From Diphasiastrum complanatum (lineage: Eukaryota > Streptophyta > Lycopodiopsida > Lycopodiales > Lycopodiaceae): a DNA stretch of 64,000 bases. The stretch's first letter is position 1. Every line of letters begins with the position of its first letter. Shown here one piece after another: positions 1-53,400 of this stretch. The DNA lies in NCBI GenBank assembly GCA_029204225.1, contig CM055104.1, positions 48,952,933-49,016,932 of the forward strand, written 5' to 3'. Under the pieces are notes generated by a model. That model was not told the DNA's origin. It made no database searches and saw only the letters and a program-made list of their open reading frames with translations. The translations under genes and the position numbers were made by a program.

Positions 1-3000
1 TGTGTATCATCCTGTGGGAGCGCAGTGCGGTGTTGTAGCAAAAACTGAAATGAGATGTACACTATTACTATCGCTGAAGACCGTCTATTTGAGAGAGCTA
101 GACGATACTAGATGCAGGGTGGCTAGGCTACTGGGTCATCTTGAGTAGTAGCAATACAGCGTCAGTACAATGGTAGTGTCTACAGGGTTTATTCTTTATG
201 CCTTCGGTCACTAAGCATTCTCCAGAGGCAGTGGGCGACTGCTTGTGGTACTAGGCGCCCAGTTAGGGAACATACGTGCATGTGGTCCTAGCATGTTGCA
301 CTAGGTGCACCTTGTCAAGCTGTAGGTTCTCACAAAGTTGTCGATGCCATCTCTGATCACAATGGTTTGAAGGAGATGACTGCATCATTTATCAACCTTT
401 GACATCGCTGGGTGACTATGCGCTTGAACCTTTTGGGGGCATCATCTGGAGAAAGAGAAAGATGTACGAGATGCGACATGCCTCTCTTCTCAAGTAAAAT
501 CCTCTCGTAGCATCATGGCAACTCAACTCATGTCTGGTCCTCTTATGACATGAAAAAGGGGAATTGCAACTGACTCATCTTGAAACCAGCAAATGATATA
601 CATCCCTCCAATCTCATAGTAGATCGACAGTATAAGACAATGCTCCTCTATCTTCGTCTCGCATCTGGCAAATTCTGTCCATTTTAAGGATCCTCTTGGA
701 AGCAACTTGTCTCTGCTTGTAGTTGACATGAACAGCTACCACTTAATCATCAATACCTTTCTATTAATTTTTACCAGTGCACACTGTTTGGTTATGGTTA
801 TCAATTTGGGGTGACTAGTCATTTGTGGGAATATTTGGGCCCCTAAAAAGCCTGAGATCCTGTTTTCATTGATCAGCTTGATCCTTTTTATTTGTACTTT
901 TTTTAATGTATTAGAAATCCATGTGTTTGTTTTTCAAGTTGGTTAGAATAATCACATTCACGTTTCCTCTTCCATGCTTCAAAAACTTTTTTGGAAGTTG
1001 GTGACAGAGTTTCCATGCGGTTAATGTCTGAGCATCTTCATTTTGGAGGCGTATTGGGCTTGTTCTTGGAGTAAACAGACTTTTCAGCACTATTTATGAT
1101 CACTATTTCCTCTTGCAACCAATCTTTTATTTAGTTTATTCACCTTATGATGAGCCTTTTACTCCCTCATCATGGCAATCATTTCATTCTGCATTGGTTA
1201 TCCCAGATTTTGTTGCTGTGCTTATTCCTACACATTCATATTATGCCTTGTTAAGCTACAAACAACCTTGCAAGATTTAGGTGTTTTAGAGAAAAAGAAA
1301 AAGCCTAGAAAGTTCAGAAAACAATGATATATATCAGTTATCATGATTACTAAATTATACACGTAGTTGCATCAGAACAAGTTTGCTTTGCTACTTTTCT
1401 GGATCACACAAAGCTCCATGGTTATGGCACCAGTTTCTATGCATCTGGAAGATGTTTTGAGTCCTGACATATCGTTAAGTCCTACTGGGAAGGTTTTTCT
1501 ACCGAGTCGTACCTTGTTGCACTTCATGCAAGGTATTGTGTTCTTTAACAGATATGGGACGAGCAATTACTGGTAACTAAAGCAAAGGAAAGGTTAGGAG
1601 TCTGATAACAATTGTAAATATAACAACAAAAAGTCAAATTACTTTAAAATATAAAAAATGAGACCAAAATGTTAACTTTGAATACCTTTTCTTAGTCACA
1701 TTTTTTGGACCTCCTCTCCTCAGAGATGTGATTGTTTGCATTATCTTAATCTTTTTTTCGGTTGATATATGACGTTACTCTATTTTCCGTAGTGACAACA
1801 CCAAAATATGGAGTTATTGTGGAATCAACAAAAAGTACATGCCCTCTCTTTATTTTCTCTTTTATTGATTTGTTGGACGACTTTGGTGTCTTTTGCTTGT
1901 ATTTTGGGCTCTTTGGTAGTACGTTCATGCAGAGGCATTGACGACACGAACTACCTATGGAGTTAAAGGTGTTAGTGGTATGAAATTGCAAAATGATATG
2001 ATACATAACTACGAATAGACCTGGTCTCATCGAAGAAAATGTGAGTAATTGCAATAACTCGAGTTATGATCACGAAGTCTATATATGACAACATGTTCGC
2101 CTTCTATCTTGAACTAGTATCAATTTGATTTGCATATGGTAGGTAGAAGGTTTAACTTTGCTTTAAATAACTTGAATGCTAATGTCGTAATTTGTGAGGT
2201 TCTTACATTTTTGGAGTGAAATAACTTGGGTCTTCATAAGTATAATTCAGGTTATAAAATTTGTCGATGGTAAGAGTTTTTTTGTGAAGAATAGCATTGT
2301 GAAATAGTACTTCTTTCCAAATTGTACCTATGAAGTTGTACTAGGTCCAAATTTATGGCACAAATGTAAGAAGTGGAATAAATGTGATTCTAGTGTTTTG
2401 ATTAGTCCACGTGTTTAGTGTTTTTGATCAGACCATTGCTTGCTTCTTATGGTTGCACTATTTCGTGCCGCTTGGTTTGTGCAATAATCCCATAAGCTAA
2501 CAATTAAGTAAGATTTTTGTAAAGTTTTTTGCATTTAAATGCTGATGGAGTCAGGAGGTTTTTAGAAATGCGCCTGGAACATGGGTGGGAATTAGAGTTT
2601 TGATGATGAAATGAATCAGAATGTAGATGAAAACTTTTATAAATAAATAGCTAAAATGTAAGCAATGATGGACAAGTTTCTTGCAACTTTATATCACTCT
2701 TAAGAATCACGGACAACACTTACATGTAGTACAATAGAAAAGTTGTTCCAAGGTAGGGTGATATATAGATAAAACATGTAGTCCAAAATCAAGATCTTAA
2801 AAAGAAGTCTAATTGAATTGCTATTTATTTTGTTTGAACAATTTATATCTTGTCAAGTATTATTCTTTTAGTTTAGTATGAGCTTAATTTTTATACATTT
2901 TGAAAAAAGCTTCTATGAACTCATTGTTATTGGAGATGGGTGCACCATAAAATTTAAGACTTAAATTAACACTCTTTGTTAAAAAAAAAATTCTTCTCGT

Positions 3001-5705
3001 TTTGTTCGTAAATTTTTATTTTGAATAAAGGAGGTCCTCTTTTGTCAATCATGATTAATGCTAATTAAGAAAGTGTTCCCAATCGAATCTTGAGAACTAG
3101 GATCAATTGGTTATTATGGTTTGACACATTTAAAGGTGAAGAATAAATCATGACATGGACCTAGAATTACACCTTATACATTGATTATTCCGATTGAACT
3201 TACCCATATTAATAGAAATGTGTAGTAGTCATAATAAAGTGTTTTTTTCAACTATGTACAAGTATTCAATCCATGCATGTTTGGATTTGGGATAATATTA
3301 ATCACAATCCCATAAAATTTGCTCATAGTGTTCTTCCTATTGAGGCAAGGACACAACAAAATACAATAGAATGAGCATTTATGACGGGCTTTCTTCTGTC
3401 AATTCTATAAGATCTACTTATTGAAGGTATCGTGAAAAGCTAAGTGAAAGTTAATATGAAAAAGCATCTCAAATTCTTCTAGTTTTTGTTTTAAAAGATT
3501 TTGAATGGCATAAAAATCATGCTTAATTGAATAATTTAAATGATGAATACATTGTATGAAAGTGATTTTATCCACTCGCTAAAGGGCAAAAAGTCAAACC
3601 TCAGTAGCGTTAGATCGCCCAATGACATTGGAAAGATTTTGATGATGGAAAATCTGTGTAGCCCTTGTTGTAGTAAATGCCACATATATGTTGATTCTTA
3701 TTCACATCTTTGTTTAGAATTGATGGAAATATTTCACTAGTAATTTTTTTGGCAATTTACTATGTATATCCATGCATTTTAGGTAGGAAATCATGCATAT
3801 ATTGATTGTGCATGATTAATATGACCAATTTGTGCATGCTTGAACTTTAGAAAAGATATGTATCAAGTAGGCGAATCTGAAGTTGGTGGTAAGCTTAAGC
3901 ATATTGGACATGCAAGGAACTACATGTATGAAATTCATAAAGTATATGATTGAATGTGTTTGCTATAAATATACATACCCCTTTTTTGTTTTGAAATTTT
4001 GGAGGGTATAAAAAAACATTGTTGATATTATTCCAAATCTGTGCTTTATCATAAATATTTGTTGGATCAACAATTTGCCAAGAAAGCATATACACATTCA
4101 ATAATTTGCCAAGAAAGCATATACATAGAGTAATGTAAGTAGGAGCACACACCATGCTCATCAAAGATGGAAAACCACAATACTTAGAAAGAGAAAATTG
4201 TACAATAAATCTTAAACTCTATTGGGCCAATAATAGTCCAGTTCATATTATGTAGAACTATTGAGCTAGTTACTTACACCAAAGTACAAAAATGAAGATA
4301 AGTTAGTACGAACTATGTTAGCCTATGTAAAAGTGATCACTTTCTAACACTTGTCAATGATCCATTGACATACTACTAATTTTGATAATGAATGAAGTTT
4401 TTCAAATTGAATATGCTCCAATAATTGCTATGATATCATTCAAAGTGATTTGTGATTTGAGCTTGAGTATTTAGATGATTGACATGTGAGGGAACTACGT
4501 GGCGTTGTATCATTCACTCCCGTGATATCATCAAATAGATCTTGTGAAATTTTGAGCTTAAAATTCTAGATCAATAACATCTTATAGAGATGATGCATTG
4601 ACCTAGTTATTCATTTCTAAAAAGCCTTCAAGGTAACGAAAACACCATATTTGTATACCACATGTTATTGTTTTCATTGATTGCATTGGATAGTGTCATA
4701 AAGTGGCAGGTATATCAACTATTTATACCAAATCTGAGCACTAGATTGATCGCCTCAACATCTAATTATTAAATCTATCATTGTGTGCTAAGTTTGAGTG
4801 CTAGATGCAGTGATCAATGAACCATCAATCAATCAACCATCTGTTCTTATTTTAAAATTTTATCACAATTTCGTTTTATCCTATTCGTCAATTGATTAAG
4901 AAGCCTTTTGGTTGGGAGACCATACAATCGATCATTAATCTCAAGTCATAAATACAATCATATTGAAGAAGAACAATACTAAGTTTGAGCATTGGACTAA
5001 ACTCTAAGATCCGATCGATCAGTTAGCAAGTACATTATCGTTGCCTTGGACATATCACTAGTTAGAACTAATTTTGATCAATATTTGTTGCAAAATCAGC
5101 TTGGACGTCAAAATTCGCTTGTACTTCTACCATCTACATTCTTGATTTGATATTTTCACCTCTATAATCAATTACAAACCACAAGGTTGGTCAACGATTA
5201 AGGTCCATTATTATCGATTTATTTTTTACTTGTTTAAAATTATTACATCATCAGAGCAAATGATCAATGAGCTATGATGATAGGAAAATCTTAGATATTC
5301 ACGTTAATTTTCTGATATTACCAAAATTTGTAAAAAAACATTAGGGCTTTTTGGACTAAAAAATGGTCCTTTTTTTGCACCCATTTTGAGATAATCCTTT
5401 TGGATAAACTAAATAATCTAAAATTCTATGTGGCACTTCAACCATAGTTCCAACTATTAGAAGTTTAACACTAAACTTCACTTTTCATATTGCTCTTAGT
5501 TAACTAGTTGTATTACAAATTGTAAGACAATCTATAGATATTAGTTGTAAGTTAGTTGTTATCAGCCATTACATAGACTGTAGGTTAACACTTAGAAAGT
5601 TCTACATTTCGTCTCATATGTATTTCTACCTTTCATTCAATTGATAATTAGCTGAGTGTTGTTTCTTCTTCTTTGTATGTTACAGTGTTTTTAAGACAAT
5701 AGTAA
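1..5705. other. Gene-poor AT-rich DNA, nothing recognised
   Basis: No reading frame here resembles a protein I know. Short frames at 523-729 (minus), 1367-1576 (plus), 1746-2054 (minus) and 3895-4164 (minus) have no motif, no splice-site pattern and no partner. The first ~500 bases are visibly less AT-rich than the rest but show no open frame of useful length. No tRNA, rRNA or LTR ends were seen. Confidence 0.6.
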
Positions 5706-6309
5706 ATTTCTAAAGAAAAGACCCTACACACTCTGCATAGCCGATATATCATATGGATTCAGATGAAAGAATCATTAAATGATGATTCTCCTTTTAAATT
5801 CACTGAAATCCATAATTTTATGCAAGAGTTTCTCGAAGTCACGACATCTCCAATATGGAGAGTTGTTATTTTTCTTTTATCTTGGCAATCAGCTTCAAAA
5901 TAGAAAGCTTCATTAACTTTTTGTAATGTGGGAATAGAAAATGTTGTGTGGTAAGTTTTTAAGTTCACGAATTATAAATTTGTATTTTAATTCAAAGTTT
6001 TACTTTAAATTAGTATAATCAATCATTTTAACTTAAAAAATTTGAAATTTTTTATTTATTTTAGCTGTAATGTTCCATGTTAGGTATAAGCCCAATGTCA
6101 GAAACTCGGGAGGAGCACGACTTTGCAATGAAATAGAATACATAACCATTGGTTATTATTCTTTGGACGGCAAGCACTCGATGCTTCACTACAATACCTC
6201 CGGGCTGACAAGTTTTGGAAAAGTGTTCCAGTATCCAGCCGTGACAAAGAAACTCAAAAATCCAATGACGGGTTCCGTGGCTGTCTTGAAATCTTTTTTA
6301 TTAGTTTAA
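5706..6309 (+). pseudogene. Decayed two-exon fragment, probably DNA-methyltransferase-like (N6/N4 type)
   Basis: Two coding-like blocks, 5706-5950 and 6084 to about 6290, are separated by a 133-bp GTAAGT...TTAG intron (5951-6083). Reading across the junction keeps frame: TG joins G to make Trp, giving IENVVW then YKPNVRN. Block 1 holds a hydrophobic strand and SWQSASK, then an in-frame TAG at 5901-5903. Block 2 holds EYITIGYYS and PAVTKK. From memory, N6/N4-type DNA methyltransferase-like proteins carry a hydrophobic strand, a Gln, a vvWyK block and a vTKK block in this order downstream of the DPP(W/Y) motif, so I infer that family. The DPP(W/Y) exon and the C-terminal part are not visible nearby. 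The stop codon and missing exons make it a pseudogene or an exon-capture remnant. The family call is moderate; the spliced coding nature is better supported. Confidence 0.45.
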
Positions 6310-6424
6310 TATTCTTAAATGTGTTTGTATTAAAAAAAGATTAACAGTTATATAATGATATGCAATTGAAAAATTTAAATATTTTTAAATATCCATGATT
6401 TTATTTCAACATTAATAACCATTA

Positions 6425-6808
6425 GCAAAACTAAAATTGCAATGAACTATTAAATTTTTAATATTCTCATTTTTTGAGGTGTTTTTATAATAATATTTTG
6501 GAGGTAATATTGTTAGAAATTTAAAGAAATGCAAAGCTTTTTTTAGGGTGATTTAAATATTTTCACAAGTCATCTACAATCATTTAATGTTTAATTTCAT
6601 TTGCAATCATTTAATGTTCTCATTTAATTATTTGCAATCATTTAAATTTTTAATATTCTTATTTTTTGATGTATTTTTATAATAATATTTTGGAGATACT
6701 ATTATTAGAGATTTAGAGAGATGTAAAGATTTTTTTCAAAGTGATTTAAATATTTTCACAAGTCATGTACAATCATTTAATGTATTATTTCATTTGCAAT
6801 TATTTAAT
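6425..6808. repeat. Tandem duplication, 192-bp unit, two copies
   Basis: The segment starting near 6461 (ATATTCTCATTTTTTGAGG) recurs near 6653 with scattered substitutions. It includes a shared TTTAAATATTTTCACAAGTC block at about 6551 and 6745. Very AT-rich; no coding potential. Confidence 0.75.
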
Positions 6809-7284
6809 GTTTAAATATTCAATGACCTTACATAAAAATTTGAAATATAACTTAAGATTTAAATAATATTAAAGTTTAAAAAATACTCATTAAAGTTTTT
6901 GTCATAATTTAAAAGCTATTTTTTAGGATACAAATATTGTCATTTAAAAAACTTTAAAATTGAAAAAAAAAATTAAAACTTTTGTTTTAATTAAGCAAAA
7001 ATAATTTTTTTAGTTATTGTAGTGGTTGTGTAATTTTATTTTGAACAGTATTATTATTTCATATAAGCTAATTTGCAATTATTAATCAGAATTTATTAAC
7101 AAAATTTTAGTAGCATAATTAATTTTCTTGCAAAATACAACATTTATTTTAGTATTACAATATTTTTTTTGAGGTATTTTAAATATGGCTATTTAAAAAA
7201 AAAATTGAAAAAAAATTGGTCTCCATGTCATTTCTTTTTTTTTTGGTAATCGCGTTCACAATAATTAATCATTTTAAATCTCAA

Positions 7285-8036
7285 TATGCAATCTTATGTA
7301 ATCTCCACCATAGTCATTGTGAAAATAATAAGAAGATGAGCATATGGATGGTTGATTTTCTGCATTTGCATGTAGTAGCATTAATCTGTTGCTATGTAAG
7401 TTAAGCAGTGTGAGAGCATGATAAGATAAGTGAGATTTAATGCACTTTCTAGGTGATTCATATCTAATTTATATTTGAAATTGCACAAAGCAACAATTTT
7501 CCTACATATTTTTGGTATTCTCTTTGAGATTTAGACAAATGCATCTATTAGTTTTTTTGCTAAAGAAATAAGTATCGGTAAGTTAAGTTATCATGATGAT
7601 TCATTTGTTTTTTTTAATATTTTAAGTTAAGAGAGCTTACACAATCACAATCACTACCAAAAAGTAGGTAAAAATTTTAGAATCGTAGAACAAATTAAAT
7701 ACTTATCCTATAGCCTTCATTGACCTCGAAGATCTATGATAGTTTTTACTTTCATCTAATCGGTGTTAGATTGGAAAGCTGAGGTGAGCAACAAATACAA
7801 GCTTATAAAAACATAGATATTTTAAGATTCAAAGTATACAACAATATATAAAGTAGACATGAATCACTTAGAAAGTACATTCAATCCTATTTATCTTATC
7901 ATGCTCTCATAATACTTAATTTACATAACAAATTGATTCTACTGCATGCAAAAGTAGAGAATCAATCATCTGCATGCTCATCTTATTATTATTTTCATAA
8001 TGACTATGGTGTAGATTACCAATCTTAATACTTACC
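7285..8036. repeat. Inverted repeat, ~185-bp arms, ~375-bp spacer
   Basis: About 7285-7475 matches the reverse complement of about 7850-8036 over most of its length, roughly 80% by eye. Shared blocks include CACCATAGTCATT, AATAAKAAGATGAGCAT and GAGAGCATGATAAGATAA. The spacer has no ORF. This could be a foldback or MITE-derived structure, or an inverted duplication. No clear target-site duplication was found. Confidence 0.65.
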
Positions 8037-8936: not shown

Positions 8937-9059
8937 ATGCTCACAAAAATTTTTTGGTTTTCAATTTAGATAAACATTGTGCTTCTGAAGCTGCCTCCAA
9001 AATACAAAGAAAATCGAAACATTGGGCATTACATATACCCTAAAAAGTCACCCTAACCC

Positions 9060-9756
9060 TGTGAAAGTACTGTACTTTAGGACCATAAATGGATCTACAA
9101 AAGATCCACAAGAGTGATTGGATGCTTGCTTAACAATCTATCAAAAAACTAGACACAAAAAAGTTGATCTAGATTGGCAGTTTGACAAACAACAAGCATT
9201 AACAATCAAAAGCATTGATCAACATTGAAATCCGAGCCCACACGTGTGTACTACAGGCTGTAGTACGGCCTTCAACTTGAGAAAGAAGTAGAAATTGATT
9301 TGGTTTCATTTGGATCACAAAAACTCAATGTACATAGTGAACTAGCTTGAGATTGCCAATGAGCTCCAAAAATTTTCTATCTTCTCACTATGGAGAGAGG
9401 GAATACATAGCAAATTCGACTTCCTTCTTGAAGTTAGGTGGATTTCCAGCATGTAATAAGGAAGTTAACTCACTTTCCTTGACCTAAAATGAAACCCTAG
9501 TCTATTTCCTAGAGTTATGCTTGGTAGGTAGCTAGTTGGTCAAATTTTCACCTTAAACTTAGGTGTAGGTCCTATAAAGTAGGGATGACCACCAAATAGA
9601 CATGACCAACTCTCTTGAATTGACCAAACCTACATTAGGATGGGTTTTCCATGTGGCATCATGGCCTCACATGTGTGGGACCCACTTGTGTACACAATTT
9701 ACACTATTCTACATGGTTTTTGATCAAGCTAGATGCCAATTTTTGGCAATTCTTCA
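9060..9756 (-). repeat. 3' LTR of the 9-11 kb element (697 bp)
   Basis: In plus orientation it starts TGTGAAAGTACTG and ends TTCTTCA, giving TG..CA ends. Directly outside lies CACTCCTCCTCAAA, whose reverse complement is the polypurine tract. The inner edge matches the other LTR at 10780. Length agrees with the 683-bp LTR at 61397-62079 of a related element. Confidence 0.85.
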
Positions 9757-10766: not shown

Positions 10767-10779
10767 GGCTCTGATACCA
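10767..10779 (-). other. Primer-binding site, initiator tRNA-Met type
   Basis: The minus strand reads TGGTATCAGAGCC directly next to the LTR edge at 10780. This is the standard copia priming sequence in plants and fixes the element's orientation. Confidence 0.9.
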
Positions 10780-11121
10780 TGTGAAAGTACTGTACTTTAG
10801 GACCATAAATGGATCTACAAAAGATCCACAAGAGTGATTGGATGCTTGCTTAACAATCTATCAAGAAACTAGACACAAAAAAGTTGATCTAGATTGGCAG
10901 TTTGACAAACAACAAGCATTAACAATCAAAAGCATTGTTCAACATTGAAATTCGAGCCCACACGTGTGTACTACAGGCTGTAGTACGGCCTTCAACCTGA
11001 GAAACAAGCAGAAATTGAGTTGGTTTCATTTGGATCACAAAAACTCAATGTACATAGTGAACTAGCTTGAGATTGCCAATGAACTCCAAAAATTTTCTGT
11101 CTTCTCACTATGGAGAGAGGG
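10780..11121 (-). repeat. Truncated 5' LTR
   Basis: It matches 9060-9401 with 9 substitutions and no indels, then similarity stops abruptly after GGAGAGAGGG. About half of the LTR (the promoter-side part) is missing. Confidence 0.85.
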
Positions 11122-11239: not shown

Positions 11240-11335
11240 CAGCCAAAAAATGCGAAAAACCTGACAGTGTTTTTACACTAAGTTTTCAACAACCGAAAAA
11301 TGCGAAAAACCCGACACTGTGTTTTTACACGGGGT
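11240..11335. repeat. Short tandem repeat, ~49-bp unit
   Basis: AATGCGAAAAACCTGACAGTG with a following TTTTTACAC near 11250 recurs near 11297 as AATGCGAAAAACCCGACACTG. It lies just upstream of the gag frame and is probably leader sequence. Confidence 0.6.
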
Positions 11336-11879
11336 TTTTGACAGGCGACAATTAGGGCAAAAAAATGTGACATTGAGGATGATCCTGATCGAGAAAGAGC
11401 TGTGGGGGTACGTAAATGGTTCAATACCCAAGTCGATAGAACCTGAATTGCTTCCAGCATGGGAAGCAGAGGATGGCAAAGCACTTGCCATTGTATCCCT
11501 GAATCTGAAAGACACTCAAATTGCTCACGTGTCAAACAACACCACCTCCAAAGAAGCATGGGATATCCTTACAAGCATCTACGAGACCTCAGATCTGTCC
11601 ACTCGCCTCTTTTTGAGGAAGAAGATGCCGACACTCAGAATGAGCGAAGGCACCTCAGTAAGCGACCATCTGAATGAGTTCAAACAGTTGCTAAACCAAC
11701 TGGCTGCAATAGGATCACCTATATTAGAAGAAGACTCTACCATGTCTCTTCTTGCCAGTCTCCCATCCTCGTATGACAATTTATTGTTGCTTCTTAGCAA
11801 CACTCATGCGCTGTCTCTACAAAAATTAAGAAGGAAGCATAAACAAATAGGCTCTATATTAGAGGAATTAATCACGTAA
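11319..11879 (+). pseudogene. Ty1/copia gag fragment (UBN2-type domain)
   Basis: An intact 186-codon frame with the copia gag signature: LWGYVNG, DGKALAIVSLNLKDTQIAHV, SKEAWDILTSIYE, LFLRKKMPTLRMSEGTSVS, LNEFKQLLNQLAAIG and LASLPSSYDNLL. These proteins assemble the virus-like particle. The usual N-terminal start is lost in the repeat-rich leader, and the zinc knuckle expected after about 230 residues is absent: the frame ends at a TAA after ILEELIT. RNase H remnants follow 800 bp later, so most of the element between is gone. No host function is likely. Confidence 0.85.
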
Positions 11880-25384: not shown

Positions 25385-27242
25385 TCACGACGTTGGTTTT
25401 GTTTTCACCATTTTCCTTTTCTCATACTGGATCGCAAAGGATTCTCGTGCCAGACTGCAAAAGATTCTTGTTCGTGAATCTTTCATGTTCGCAAACCGTT
25501 CGTGTTCATTTCCTTTGACTTGCGTGTTCGCGAACCGTTCGTCTTCGTGTTTCGTGTCAGGCGGAGGGCTGAAAGCTAGCAAGGATTTGTAGCTAGAAAC
25601 ATTTCGTTTCTTCAACATTCTTTCAAAGCATGATAGCTTTACGATCTCGAGACTGCTCCTCTGTCTCTCAAAGAGTCCTTTGTCTAGGGCTTTGGTGAAT
25701 ATGTCAGCAACCATGTCTTTCGTTTCGATGAAGGTGGTTTGCAACATCTTCTTTTCAATTAGATCCTTGATCAAGTGATACTTGATCGCAATGTGCTTCA
25801 TTCTGAAATGGAACACGAGGTCTTTTGTTAGATGTATTGCAGAGGTGTCGTCCATCTGCAAGACCAGAGGCTCGTTTCTTGTTTTGCCCAATTCGTCCAG
25901 GAACTGCCTTAGCCAGATTATCTCGTTGGCCATCTTTGCTGCTGCAACGTACTCTAGTTTGCAGGATGACTGGGCTACAACGATCTGCTTCTTGTTGACC
26001 TAGAGAACTGCTGCTCCTGATGCGATGGTGCACCCTCCTGAGATGCTTTTACAATCGTCCTTGAGAGATGCCCAGCTAGCATCGCTGTAGAAAAGCATCC
26101 TGAAACCTGCACCACGACAATAACACAGCCCATAATCCCTCGTTAATTGAAGATATTGCAAAATTTGTTTCGCAATCTTCCAATGTGTCGAGCCTAGAAT
26201 TGTGCAAAATTGGCTCATCCTGAATACTGCACAAGCAATATCAAGACATGTGTTGTCTGCAAGGTGCATCAGCGATTCTATCAGCTTCTTGTAAGGTGTG
26301 AGCTACATCTATTCTCTCTCTTCCTTAGTCTTCGGACAGTCATCGCTTGTCAGCACCATCCCTTGCGAGCATTGCAGTATTCGCTCCTTTGCAGTTTAGC
26401 ATCCCAAAGTCCTCTAGGATCTTCTGGGTGTATCTGGACTGGTGAAGGTATAACTTACCTCCCTTGTAGTTCCTTTCAATTTGTAAGCCTAGGTAACACT
26501 TGGCTTCTCCCACATCCATGATCTCGAAATGTTTCAAGATGTCTGTCTTCACTTCAGCAATTAGCTGCTCACTCTTGCAAAGTATCAAGGTGTCATCCAC
26601 ATATACAACCACAATGATGATTTGCCCATCTGTAATTCTGACATAAACATTAGAATCAGCTAACAGAGGCTTGAATCCTAATGATTTCAAGGCTTGATCT
26701 TTCTTTTTATACCATTGTCGGGCTGATTGTTTCAGACTGTGGATACTTCTGTGCATTCTACATGCATAGTTAAGAAGTGAATTCGAGACGTATCCTGGGG
26801 GTTGATCCATATAGACCTCTTTATCTAGTTTGCCATGCAAGAAGGCTGTCTTCTCATCCACAATGTGGATCCAAAGGTCATAAGCTACTGCATATGCAAA
26901 AAACAGATGTAGGGACGAATGTTTGACAACATGAGAGAAGGTTTCAGAGTAGTCAATACCATATTTCTAAGAAAATTCTTCGCTAGTAGTCTTGCCTTGT
27001 ATTTCGTGATGTTCTCATCTGGTCCGTATTTGAGCTTGAAAACCCATTTGCATTTGAGTCTTGCGCCTATGTGGTAATGGCTCCAACGTCCATACCTGGT
27101 TCTTCCTCATGGACTCCATCTCTTCGTTCATGGCTTGGATCCATTTGTCCTTGTTTAGACTGTCAATCGCCTCCTTGAAAGTCTGTGGTTCGCCACTGAA
27201 TCCGTAGATCTCTTCTGATATGGAAGCTGAGCTACTTGGCAC
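25385..27242 (-). pseudogene. Copia family R reverse transcriptase and RNase H
   Basis: From 27242 down: KWIQAMNEEMESMRKNQVW, then a frameshifted KWVFKLKYGPD region, DEKTAFLHGKLDKEVYMDQP, VVVYVDDTLIL (YVDD box), VGEAKCYLGLQIERN, then RNase H with FYSDASWASLKDD, ANEIIWLRQFLDEL, RMKHIAIKYHLIKDL and KDMVADIFTKALDKG. The frame runs on past RNase H for some 80 codons into Asp/Glu/Lys-rich sequence. Breaks: a frameshift near 27060, a stop between the two RT frames and one at 26000. Sister copy at 50405-50806. Confidence 0.85.
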
Positions 27243-27451
27243 ATATCTTGCTGGCGCTAATCATGGTATTGTCGACCTTCTAAAAGATCTTCCCGGGACA
27301 ACAATGCCTTTATTGCTCTGCTCGGTCCAGAACCATCTTGGTTTACAGGAACTGTAGCAGTAGGCTGCCTCTCGAATCTTTCTTCTTCTGATTCTTCACT
27401 CGAATGGGAGACGACTCAAAAATCTTCGTTTTCGTGTTCGTCCTCTGCTCC

Positions 27452-28640
27452 CTATTTTACTAGCGGCAGGTCATAGTACTGTTTCTCCATAACTTCGTAG
27501 CTGACAGGATCGTCGTTGACCGTTATCCTGCTCTCATCAAATCTGACATCTCTCACTGTTTTCACAATGTTCGTGTCTGGCATGTAGATTCTGTAGTATG
27601 ATGAATTGTTGTCATAGCCTACCAGAAATCCCTGCTCGGGTTTCTCATCAAGCTTCTTTTGAAGCTTATCAGGAATATGTGCATAAGCTGCACAACCAAA
27701 GATTCTGACGTGAGACAGATTGGGCTTTCTACCCCACCATAGCTCATGTGGTGTCATGTGAGGAACACCAAACTTGCCTGTTCGGTTCTGGATGTATGCG
27801 GCTGTAGCTACTACTTCAGCCCACAATACCCTTGGAGCTTTCGAGTAGGCCATCATGCATCTGGCTGCTTCCATCAGGGTCCTATTCTTTATCTCAGCAA
27901 CACCATTGTGCTATAGTGTGTAGGCTGCAATTCTTCTATGAATGATGCCACGATCATTGCAAAAGTCAGTGAATCGATTCGAGATGTATTTGCTACCTCG
28001 ATCTATCCTGATCTGCTTAACCCTGTTGCCTGTACATCTTTCAGCCCAATTCACATATTTTGTGAATTTATCGAGTGGTTCATATTTATTCTGAATAAAG
28101 TACGCTCTGGAAAATTTGCTATAGTCATCAATGAAGGTTATATAATATTTTGAACCTCCTACTGAGATCACATTGAATGGTCCGCAGATGTTAGAATGCA
28201 CTAACTCTAGAATCTTGGTCATTCTGTAGGAGTCTTTGATGAATGTAGTGTGTGACATCTTGCCCTTCAAACATGCATCACAGGTGGTCGAACTGGTTGC
28301 ATTCAAGATGCTGACCCCTGTTATCACTCCATGATGGCTTGCCTGGTAAAGTGCCATTGAGTTCATGTGGCAAAGTCTTTTGTGCCACAGAGTGTCTGGC
28401 GAGTCATCATGAGTTTGATGCACCTGATCTGCAGGTAGGCATACCTTCAGATGATATAGGTTTCCTTTCCTTCTGCCTTGAGCGATCAAAGTACTAGTAC
28501 TGGCGTCAATCACGTTGCATGCTTCGTCAGAAAACATCACGTGCATCCTTGCATCTGCTATTCTTGCTACAGAGAGCAAGTCTTGTTGCAGAGTAGGCAC
28601 GAATAGAACGTCTTCGAGTCACCTGTCTCTGCTGTTGCTA
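27452..28640 (-). pseudogene. Copia family R pre-integrase zinc domain and integrase
   Basis: Starts near VLFVPTLQQDLLSVARIA (protease-integrase linker). LWHKRLCHMNSMALYQ and TTCDACLKGK form the HHCC zinc domain. FIDDYSKFSRAYF holds the first catalytic Asp and RIDRGSKY the second. The third (NGVAEIKNRTL) follows a premature TAG near 27912. The C-terminal part reads ELWWGRKPNLSHVRIFGCAA and LVGYDNNSSYYRIY. Single uninterrupted frames of 229 and 140 codons make this the cleanest R integrase here. Its empty CTGAC site at 27501-27505 marks where the sister copy carries a palindromic insertion. Confidence 0.88.
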
Positions 28641-29590
28641 TTGAGCCATAGTGCGGTCTAATGCGGTCTAGGGCGATGCTAGGGCGGATATGGTTGATTG
28701 TGGTTGAATGCAGTGCAACTGCGGTCTAGAGCGGTGCAAGGGCGGATGCAAAGGATATGTCCGTTGGATGTAACTCAGACTATTCTTTCTCCTCCTAAAA
28801 TGGTGCATGATCGAGACATATAGCGGTTGGGTTGTTGTTTGCTTGAACATCGAACGATGGTGTTTTGATGCAATTCGGATCTTAGAGAAAAGATGGAATG
28901 CGTGCTTGTGAAAAAGATGAATGCAAAAAGCAAGTAGGCAATCAGAATCAAGAAGAACTATAAAATTGACTGTTACAGTGGAGTTCTTCAGCAAGATTTA
29001 AGAAGATTATCAGTAGCAACCAGTGCCATTGTTAGCGGATTCTATTAGGTACAATGTTTGCTGACTTTGCCACCTAAGAGCAAGAATCTGATTGCTACCT
29101 TTTTGGTTCATGATCACTTTGTAGTATGGTGTATGTATCACACCTGTCAGTTCGACACATCTACGACTTGATCTCGATCCTTGACTGACAATGGAAGCTC
29201 AACTTAAATGCTTGATCTATCAAGACTCATATATCTACGTTCTATAGTCTGTTTCAGATTTGTCTTGGTTTCTTACAGAATGTAGATGATTGCTAGTCCA
29301 ATAAAAAAAAAAGAATAAGATTGAATCTACTCCTACTGAAATCACCAGATCCACAAAACATCTAACTAAGAACTGGAAGATCCTACAGAGTGCTTATAAA
29401 AAATATCACTCAACATTAATAATAAACATTTAATTAGGAGGCCATCCTTTAACTTACTCATTATTAAGAGCCTCTTTATTAAAAATACATCTCAAGTTTG
29501 AGAGGGCCCAAATTACTAGCTCCGGCATGGTTTTCAATCTTTTGGGAATTACCATGGGGCTCACAAAATGTACAACTTAACCTAGCACTG
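28640..29590. other. Non-coding; degenerate GCGGTCTAGGGCG repeats at left
   Basis: 28648-28745 contains several imperfect copies of TGCGGTCTAGGGCGATGC-like units. This replaces the expected gag/protease of the neighbouring family R element, so its 5' end has been lost or swapped. The remaining part has no recognised feature. Confidence 0.45.
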
Positions 29591-50404: not shown

Positions 50405-53400
50405 CGGAAGTGAATTCCAGACATATCTTGGGGGTTGATCCATATAGACCTCTTCGTCTAGGTCACCATGCAAGAAGGTTGTCTTCTCGTTCACAATATG
50501 GATCATGAGGTCATAAGCTGCTACATATGCAAATAATAGACGTAGGGATGAATGTTTGATGACAAGAGAGATGGTTTCAGAGTAGTCAATACCATATCTA
50601 TGAGAGAATCCCTTTACTACCAGTCTCGCCTTGTACTTTGAGACATTTCCATCTGGTCCATACTTGAGTTTGAAAACCCATTTGCATTTGACAGTCTTGC
50701 GCTTATGTGGTAATGGCTGCAACATCCATACTTGGTTCTTCCTCATGGACTCCATATCTTCGTTCATGGCTTGGATCCATCTGTCCTTCTCTAAACATTC
50801 AATCACCTCCTCAAAAGTCTATGGTTTGCCACTGAATCTGCAGAACTCTTCTGATGTGAAAGTTGAGCTGCCTGGCACATATCTTGCTGGCACTCTTCGT
50901 GGTCTTGTTGATCTTCTAGGAGATCCTCCTAGGACAACAATGCCTTTGCCTTTGTCTGCTCTGCTAGGTCCGAAATCATCCCGGTTTACAGAAACTATAG
51001 TAGTAGGCTACCTCTCGAATCTTTTGTCTTCAGATTCGTCACTCAAATAGGAAACGACTCAAAAATCTTCATTTTCGTGTTCGTTCTCTGCTCCCTCTGT
51101 CACTTGCGGTAGGTCATAGTACTATCTCTCTAGAACTTCATAGCTGACTGTGAAGATGTGTATTTATTAAACAACGAATATACATCCGAATGAAGCAATA
51201 TATATTCACATAAGAAAAATATAGGCAGGTCCCTTCATTATAAATGTATCCAGCTCTTGTCTTCTTATGTGAATATATATTGCTTCATTCGGATGTATGT
51301 GTATTTATTAAACAACGAATATACATCCGAATGAAGCAATATATATTCACATAAGAAGACAAGAGCTGGATACATTTATAATGAAGGGACCTGCCTATAT
51401 TTTTCTTATGTGAATATATATTGCTTCATTCGGATGTATATTCGTTGTTTAATAAATACACATCTTCACACTGACAGGATTGTCATTGGCCATTGTCCCG
51501 CTCTCATCAAATCTGACATCTCTCACTGTTTGCACAACATCCATGTCTGGCATGTATACTCTGTAGTATGACAAATTGTTGTCATAACCCACCAAAAATC
51601 CCTGCTCGGCATTCTCATCAAGCTTCTTCCTAAGCTTATCAGAAATATGTGCATAAGCTGCACAACCAAAGATTCTGACATGAGACAGGTTCAGCTTTCT
51701 ACCCCACCATAACTCATGTGGTGTCATGTGAGGGACACCAGACTTTCCTGTCCTTTTCTAAATGTATGTGGCTGTAGCTATTGCTTCAGCCCACAATACT
51801 CTTGGAGCCTTTGAGTAGGCCATCATGCATCTAGCTGCTTCCATCAGGGTATTCTTTTGTTCTGCAACACCTGTGCTGTGGTGTGTAGGTTGCAGTCCTT
51901 CTGTGAATGATTCCATGATCATTACAGAGGTCAATGAAGTGATTCGAGATGTATTCGCCACCTTGATCTGTCCTAATCTGCTTCACTTTGTTGCTTGTAC
52001 ATCTCTCGGCCCAGTTCACATATTCTGTGAGTTTATCAAGTGCTTCAGATTTATTCTGAATAAAATACACTTTGACAAATTTGCTATAACCATCAATGAA
52101 GGTTATATAATATTTTAAACCTCCTATTGAGATCACATTGAAAGACCCACAGATGTCAGAATGCACTAATTCCAAAATCTTGGTCGTTCTGTAGGAGTCT
52201 TTGATGAATGGAGTGCGTGACCTTCAAACATGCATCATAGGTGGTCGAACTGATTGCATTCGAGATGCTGACCCATGTTATTGCTCCATGATGGCTTGTT
52301 TGGTAAAGTGCCATAGAGTTCATGTGGCAGAGTCTCATGTGCCACAGAGTGTCTGGCGAGTCATCATGAGTCTGATGCACCTGATCTGCAGGTAGGCATA
52401 CCTTTAGATGATATAGATTACCTTTTCTTCTGCCTTGAGTGATCAAAGTACTGGTACTGGCGTCAACCACGTTGCATGCTTCGTCAGAAAATGTCACACG
52501 CATTTTTGCATTTGCTATTCTTGCCACAGAAAGCAAGTCTTGTTGTAGTGTAGGCACGAACAGAACATCTTCGAGTCGTCTGTCTCTGCCATTGGTGTTG
52601 AGCCAAAGTGAACGAATACCATTCACTTGATGTTTAGATCCATCTCCAAGAACTATGAATCTGGAGGGATCGGCACTTCTGAAATCAGACATGATTCATC
52701 TTGATATCACGAAGTGTGAGGTGGCTCTCAAATCTAGGATCACTTCGTGTGTGTCAAATGTTGATGCTGCACACACATCTTCACAAATGTAGGTGGTCGA
52801 ATAATTTTTGTTCGATCTTTCCTCACCCATTTTTGAGCTCTCAAGCTCCTCGACATAGGATAAATTGTTGCTGTTCTCTTGTTTGTTCTGCGCTAATTTG
52901 TTTTTTAGGTTCTGTCCATAGTTGCATGACCTTCTTGTGACAGTGGATACACTCAATCTTTGGATTGAGCCAACATGTATCAACCGTGTGCCCATCTCGT
53001 CTGCATCTCATGCAAGTCTTCTTTTCTCCACCACGTTGTTTTGACATTCCTTTGCTTTTTCAGTTTCCTTTGCTGGTCCTCTCTGCTTGTTGATCATGAT
53101 CTTGCCTCTGATTCAACTCCCTCTTAGGCTTAATTTATTTCTTGGATTTCTCTTAGTTGATGTAGAGGGCCTGGTCAGAACCATCTTTGTGATCAAGATG
53201 TTCTCTTGCCTTGACTTCCTCTAGAAACTCGCCTTTTTGAGGTTCATGGTAGGATCTTTCGCGAGCAGGGTGCTCGTTGTCTGAAAAGATTTGGGTAAGG
53301 CTCTCAACAGGTATGTGAGCTGCTTCTCAGCTGGCACTGCGTTCTCTGCTCCAGAGTTATGTAGTGATAGAAATAGATCTTTCATCTTTCTTACAAAAGA

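Follow-up and report, generated by a model that had tools for sequence, protein, structure and literature searches.

A nested palindrome in Diphasiastrum complanatum that reads as an inverted dimer of Ty3/Gypsy U3 ends, apparently inserted by integrase

We analysed a window of 64,000 nucleotides from Diphasiastrum complanatum (C13:48952933-49016932 of the 1.74-Gb assembly), in which a decayed copia copy is split by a palindromic insert. Judged from its sequence the insert is a U3-to-U3 inverted dimer, i.e. U3 bases 1-68 joined to reversed U3 116-1 and then mirrored, and it very probably arose through faulty reverse transcription of a young Ty3/Gypsy LTR retrotransposon and was inserted by the integrase of that same element. 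Integration of a cDNA with two U3 ends is strongly supported, and the route by which the dimer was formed is one that we infer.

The insert comprises 322 bp at 51149-51470, has TG..CA ends with TGTGA at the terminus, and is flanked on both sides by the 5-bp duplication CTGAC (51144-51148 and 51471-51475), giving a total gain of 327 bp at the site (322-bp insert plus 5-bp duplication). Together with both copies of CTGAC it occupies C13:49004076-49004407. Its arms, 51149-51298 and 51321-51470, are complementary at 150 of 150 positions and are separated by a 22-nt spacer. A paralogous copia copy at 26774-28653 carries the empty site with a single CTGAC at 27501-27505. Alignment of the two flanks of the insert with this copy resulted in identities of 83.6% and 86.7%, and the two alignments overlap by exactly these 5 bp. 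The features of the site are as follows:

51144..51148, no strand, target duplication CTGAC, left copy, single in the empty paralogous site 27501-27505
51149..51298, plus strand, left 150-bp arm, exact reverse complement of 51321-51470
51299..51320, plus strand, 22-bp spacer, same as LTR bases 10-31
51321..51470, minus strand, right 150-bp arm, exact reverse complement of the left arm
51471..51475, no strand, target duplication CTGAC, right copy, single in the empty paralogous site
27501..27505, no strand, empty target site in the paralogous copia copy, CTGAC once
50407..52610, minus strand, host, decayed copia copy (RT to integrase region) split by the insert, from alignment to the paralogue, frames with stops

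Re-measurement gave the same exact repeat, spacer and CTGAC flanks as had been reported in the initial annotation, and we likewise found the uninterrupted site that it had placed in a relative at 27.5 kb. Its description of the host copia as full of stops agrees with the best minus-strand frame, which contains 4 stops in 50407-51148 and 14 in 51471-52610. In the paralogous copy RVT_2, gag_pre-integrs and rve were detected in frames at 26340-26861 and 27911-28600. The fold of the insert is 40 sd better than that of shuffled sequences (n = 100). An Rfam scan and a tRNA scan gave no match, nor did an exact 22-mer comparison with viral contigs, a set from which the source genome is possibly absent.

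Three other observations were made in the window. A 13-base exact match to the U3 terminus lies at 52773-52785 within the host copia on the minus strand and is probably due to chance. Two direct repeats of 346 bp with 97.1% identity (9056-9401 and 10776-11121), 1.7 kb apart and shortly before a copia gag frame at 11319-11879, could be the LTRs of a short element. The copia protein encoded at 62391-63581 matches a Diphasiastrum complanatum protein with 98% over about half its length.

The inverted repeat had been described as a perfect palindrome; its exactness stands, but it is nested, which had been missed, as a fold-back of 181 bp, with 68-bp arms and a 45-bp spacer, is mirrored a second time. 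The arm is made up of L (68 bases), reversed M (45 bases) and a 37-base part of reversed L, and the spacer corresponds to bases 10-31 of L. The fold-back L68-M45-L68 thus amounts to 181 bp (68 + 116 - 3) and the whole insert to 322 bp (150 + 174 - 2). The insert can be divided into four segments, all of which match bases 1-116 of the LTR of a Gypsy family base for base:

51149..51216, plus strand, segment A, LTR U3 bases 1-68 of the Gypsy family, base-for-base match
51214..51298, minus strand, segment B, LTR U3 bases 116 down to 32, reversed, 3-bp overlap GAA with A
51297..51405, plus strand, segment C, LTR U3 bases 8-116, 109 bp, 2-bp overlap AT with B
51403..51470, minus strand, segment D, LTR U3 bases 68-1, reversed, ending at the U3 terminus

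Whereas an LTR retrotransposon has a U3 terminus at one end and U5 at the other, the insert carries the U3 terminus at both outer ends and contains neither a U5 end nor element interior. As the U5 end is absent, integrase apparently used a cDNA with two U3 ends.

Segment C recurs with 100% identity at at least 39 other places, many of them paired 6 to 14 kb apart, as found with 40 of the 198 first-look candidates scored. We read 28 of these 39 places, and all of them turned out to be LTRs, 26 with the full length of 1,218 bp (TGTGAAGATG...CACGACA). Thirteen are preceded by the polypurine tract GAGGAGGGGGATA and are 3' LTRs, another 13 are followed by a primer-binding site, and two are solo LTRs. 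Over bases 1-116, 25 of these 28 LTRs are identical, a figure that is biased upward by best-match selection. Copies of the family start with TGTGAAG and end with CACGACA, the target duplication is 5 bp long in all eight copies with both flanks at hand (by eye), and solo LTRs were seen at nine loci.

Two separate internal pieces of one copy contain Retrotrans_gag, CCHC, a weak protease match below the Pfam cut-off, RVT_1, RNase H, integrase H2C2 and rve, a domain order that is that of Ty3/Gypsy. No Pfam family matched a 423-aa piece after the integrase or a 965-aa frame downstream of it (221-3118 of the internal piece), the latter possibly being an env-like or Athila/Tat-type extra frame. A TATA-like motif, ATTTATAAT, is located at LTR 85-93 (by eye), and ATATATAAT is present in both arms of each of two further inserts, C20 and C22 (see below). 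The spacing between TATA box and start in plants puts the transcript start at about LTR 117, so that transcription is predicted to begin near this position, which would make it the probable U3/R border.

These data also bear on which enzyme comes into question. The initial annotation had taken TG..CA ends plus 5 bp as pointing to an integrase, in line with the ordinary copies of the family, which share the TGTGAAG end and the 5-bp duplications, and the longer relative with the same ends encoding an integrase or transposase that it had envisaged exists as an ordinary Gypsy LTR retrotransposon. Its suggestion of a copia integrase gives way to one of Gypsy type, since the insert consists of Gypsy LTR U3, and the insert is not a Ginger derivative. 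A search of the genome for more copies of the hairpin revealed the palindrome once (40 of the 198 candidates scored), the 28 relatives read being LTRs. The notion of a non-coding hairpin moved by an integrase-like enzyme holds with regard to the enzyme, which apparently is an integrase, but the hairpin is a derivative of an LTR U3 and not a member of a hairpin transposon family.

Three further loci of the family share this layout: each is bounded by U3 termini on both outer sides, has an internal junction in inverted orientation and is flanked by a 5-bp duplication. At C9:41860343-41878710 (18.4 kb) element bases 1-7522 are joined to reversed 4531-1, the duplication being GGCTT; C20:19162934-19165936 (3.0 kb) comprises element 1-2889 and reversed U3 117-1 between copies of ATGAT; and C22:3818410-3820618 (2.2 kb) comprises element 1-2142 and reversed U3 117-1 between copies of CATCA. 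The C9 dimer is itself interrupted by a 6.3-kb sequence (C9:41864662-41870964) that has no similarity to the Gypsy element and is accompanied by an 8-bp overlap of element bases 4316-4323, perhaps the target duplication of another transposon. Exact U3 termini adjoin both copies of the duplication at all four loci (window, C9, C20 and C22), and the simplest reading of this is the action of integrase on two U3 ends. Three of the four events (window, C20 and C22) have a reversed arm beginning at U3 116/117, the arms of C9 stop at the unrelated positions 7522 and 4531, and the second mirroring is confined to the window insert.

At the inner junctions the joined sequences overlap by 3 and 2 bp in the window, 6 bp in C20, 8 bp in C9 and 5 bp in C22. 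Random junctions of the same sequences have a mean overlap of 0.71 bp, with P = 0.006 for at least 5 bp and P = 0.0002 for at least 8 bp, and a sum of at least 19 bp over four overlaps (C22 excluded) was not reached in any of 300,000 random draws. The overlaps in C9, C20 and C22 are unusually long compared with random junctions, indicating that joining probably made use of microhomology. Taken by themselves the window overlaps are not unusual (random P 0.06 for 3 bp and 0.17 for 2 bp).

The frequency of such inserts was approached by a census of U3 ends. The first 28 bases of the LTR have 178 exact matches in the genome; all ends preceded by C, G or T (87) or by A after a non-T base (17) were covered, and the remaining 74, which are preceded by TA and hold most ordinary 3' LTRs, were covered in part. 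Facing U3 pairs were chosen by eye, and the census comprises exact 28-mers. Beyond the loci with identical LTRs 79 further ends (60 + 19) were read. In 61 of these a primer-binding site follows, seven are solo LTRs with a 5-bp duplication, three are ambiguous (two with a 4-bp match, one 3' LTR with a changed polypurine tract), and eight are shortened, namely the C22 insert (LTR 117), one at a contig end and six others. The LTR match of these six stops at 214, 311, 913, 943, 946 and 1131, and they could be other aberrant inserts or the result of later damage. The 91 ends read that are not ordinary 3' LTRs have 73 distinct 12-bp flanks, one of which belongs to C22. When the other three events are added, U3-U3 inserts account for about 4 per roughly 75 distinct insertions, a rough figure with TA-preceded and diverged copies imperfectly covered. 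For comparison, among 55 U5 ends not followed by T no inverted U5-U5 pair was seen within 100 kb (by eye), about two being estimated at the U3 rate; with zero against about two expected a strand bias of U3 over U5 is not proven.

Based on these structures the dimer may have formed as follows. A truncated plus-strand cDNA, begun at the polypurine tract and so carrying the U3 terminus, would pair with its 3' end over 3-8 nt with another plus-sense strand and would then be extended along it. The pairing site would lie within U3 112-117, the probable U3/R border, in three of the four cases, resembling the first strand transfer carried out with the wrong DNA end: the 3' end of the plus-strand cDNA would take the place of minus-strand strong-stop DNA and be extended through U3. 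A second priming at the polypurine tract could then supply the other U3 terminus of the new molecule, and integrase would bring together two U3 ends instead of a U3 and a U5 end. In vitro, purified retroviral integrases are able to join two ends of the same kind. In the window a further mirroring of the 181-bp product (150/174, 2-bp overlap) would have taken place, either before insertion or after it. Instead of the U3/R border, the run TTTTTCG at LTR 111-117 may by itself favour pairing.

The main rival differs from this scheme solely in how the dimer is formed: two broken double-stranded cDNAs, each with a U3 end, are joined tail to tail by microhomology-mediated end joining of the host, and integrase then inserts the dimer. 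Similar junctions would be expected from such joining, and both the overlaps of 2-8 bp and the unrelated arm stops of C9 are in agreement with it. By itself, however, end joining leaves unexplained why the arm stops at U3 116/117 in three separate events, and it predicts U5-U5 dimers equally often, with none observed among the 55 U5 ends, a weak test. We consider this route possible, but on the unlikely side.

Far less probable is that the site first received a plain solo LTR or element, the palindrome arising later by replication template switching in the chromosome. The outer mirroring (150/174) could be such a step, as the 181-bp fold-back may stall replication. An ordinary insertion, however, has U5 (CACGACA) beside one duplication, and base-exact U3 termini would be needed next to both duplications at four loci.

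That the inversion was made by autointegration is still less plausible, even though the family probably does undergo this reaction. At C1:98360277-98376537 (16.3 kb) an ordinary U5..U3 insertion with outer CTAGC duplications harbours an inverted half element, the facing pair of U3 ends spanning C1:98366928-98376537. The exact U3 end of this half abuts internal base 4809, and the adjoining arm ends at 4814. The 6 bp of element common to both sides (4809-4814) fit the 5-bp stagger of an autointegration with one extra base, so that from its sequence the locus looks like autointegration followed by end joining. The other junction contains a 20-bp filler repeating nearby sequence, and a twin of the locus at 99.40 Mb is identical at the ends fetched. 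We rejected the C1 pair as a U3-U3 insert, since the same element makes up its left flank and CTAGC adjoins a U5 end on one outer side and a U3 end on the other. In autointegration an LTR terminus remains at the inner junction; the window, C9, C20 and C22 have none there, and this reading was therefore discarded for the window insert.

That the insert is a MITE, or belongs to a Ginger/GingerRoot-type family of DNA transposons making 5-bp duplications, is hardly credible: arms resembling TIRs, TGTGA ends fitting TGTNR and the 5-bp duplication agree with it, but a MITE should have many copies and a single palindrome was found (40 of the 198 candidates scored), and the 28 relatives read belong to an element with LTRs, polypurine tract, primer-binding site, gag and RT. 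Hairpin reads can produce palindromes in assemblies and this assembly holds repeated segments, yet an artefact is just as improbable, as it would also mirror the flanking copia, would not yield a 5-bp duplication with two exact LTR termini, and would have to account for four concordant loci.

The repeated segments became apparent as 16 groups of two or three U3 ends with a common 12-bp flank (on C1, C2, C3, C5, C6, C7, C9, C10, C13, C14, C17 and small contigs), indicating that the assembly contains duplicated segments or unpurged haplotypes. The arms of the insert do not differ at any of 150 positions, and the insertion looks recent, as had been proposed. At a substitution rate of 7e-9 per site and year this puts the age of the insert below about 1.4 million years, provided that neither arm has been corrected from the other.

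Comparison with known systems reveals several partial likenesses. A solo LTR also consists of LTR sequence only, with TG..CA ends and a 5-bp duplication, but it spans U3 to the U5 end, whereas the window insert consists of four pieces of U3 1-116 in alternating orientation. Mu killer of maize is an inverted duplication of a transposon end, and so is the window insert; such a repeat could yield a silencing hairpin RNA if transcribed.

LTR insertions that are fused or arranged in tandem and have a single duplication of 5 bp (or 4 bp) have been described (PMC1950507, PMC11899658). Complex insertions in Triticeae are attributed to template switching, two elements in the same orientation being fused through a third LTR that they share (Sabot and Schulman 2007, PMC1950507); they share with our insert the aberrant strand transfer in reverse transcription and the single insertion of the whole product with one 5-bp duplication, but have the same direction throughout, whereas our insert has inverted halves and U3 at both outer ends. 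Tandem LTR-retrotransposon structures (PMC11899658) are also dimeric products of a single insertion with a 4-5 nt duplication, but are tandem and not inverted, opposite orientation not being described in the portion of that source considered. Ginger1, Ginger2 and GingerRoot resemble the insert in their integrase-type ends TGT..ACA and duplications of 4-6 bp (5 bp for TDD-4/5 of the Ginger2 group, 6 bp for GingerRoot from the clubmoss Selaginella), but are TIR transposon families, whereas the relatives of the insert are LTRs (PMC2836005, PMC10045372). Inverted U3-U3 insertions were not found in the open-licence literature by title and start of abstract.

In genome annotation an insert of this kind could pass for a MITE or for an orphan hairpin, while it is actually a relic of faulty reverse transcription. 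Taken together, the four loci indicate that the integrase of a plant Gypsy element is able to integrate a cDNA bearing U3 at both ends in vivo, and they suggest that switching has a preferred site at the probable U3/R border. We tentatively propose, without giving it even chances, that the family regularly makes inverted U3-U3 cDNAs (about 1 in 20 recent insertions) because plus-strand cDNA ends can carry out the first transfer at the U3/R border, and that integrase accepts two U3 ends in vivo. Promoter-end inverted repeats would in this way be scattered through the genome, and hairpin RNA directed against the family itself could originate from some of them. LTR retrotransposons may have here a means of generating inverted copies of their own promoter ends, which could in turn trigger silencing by small RNAs.
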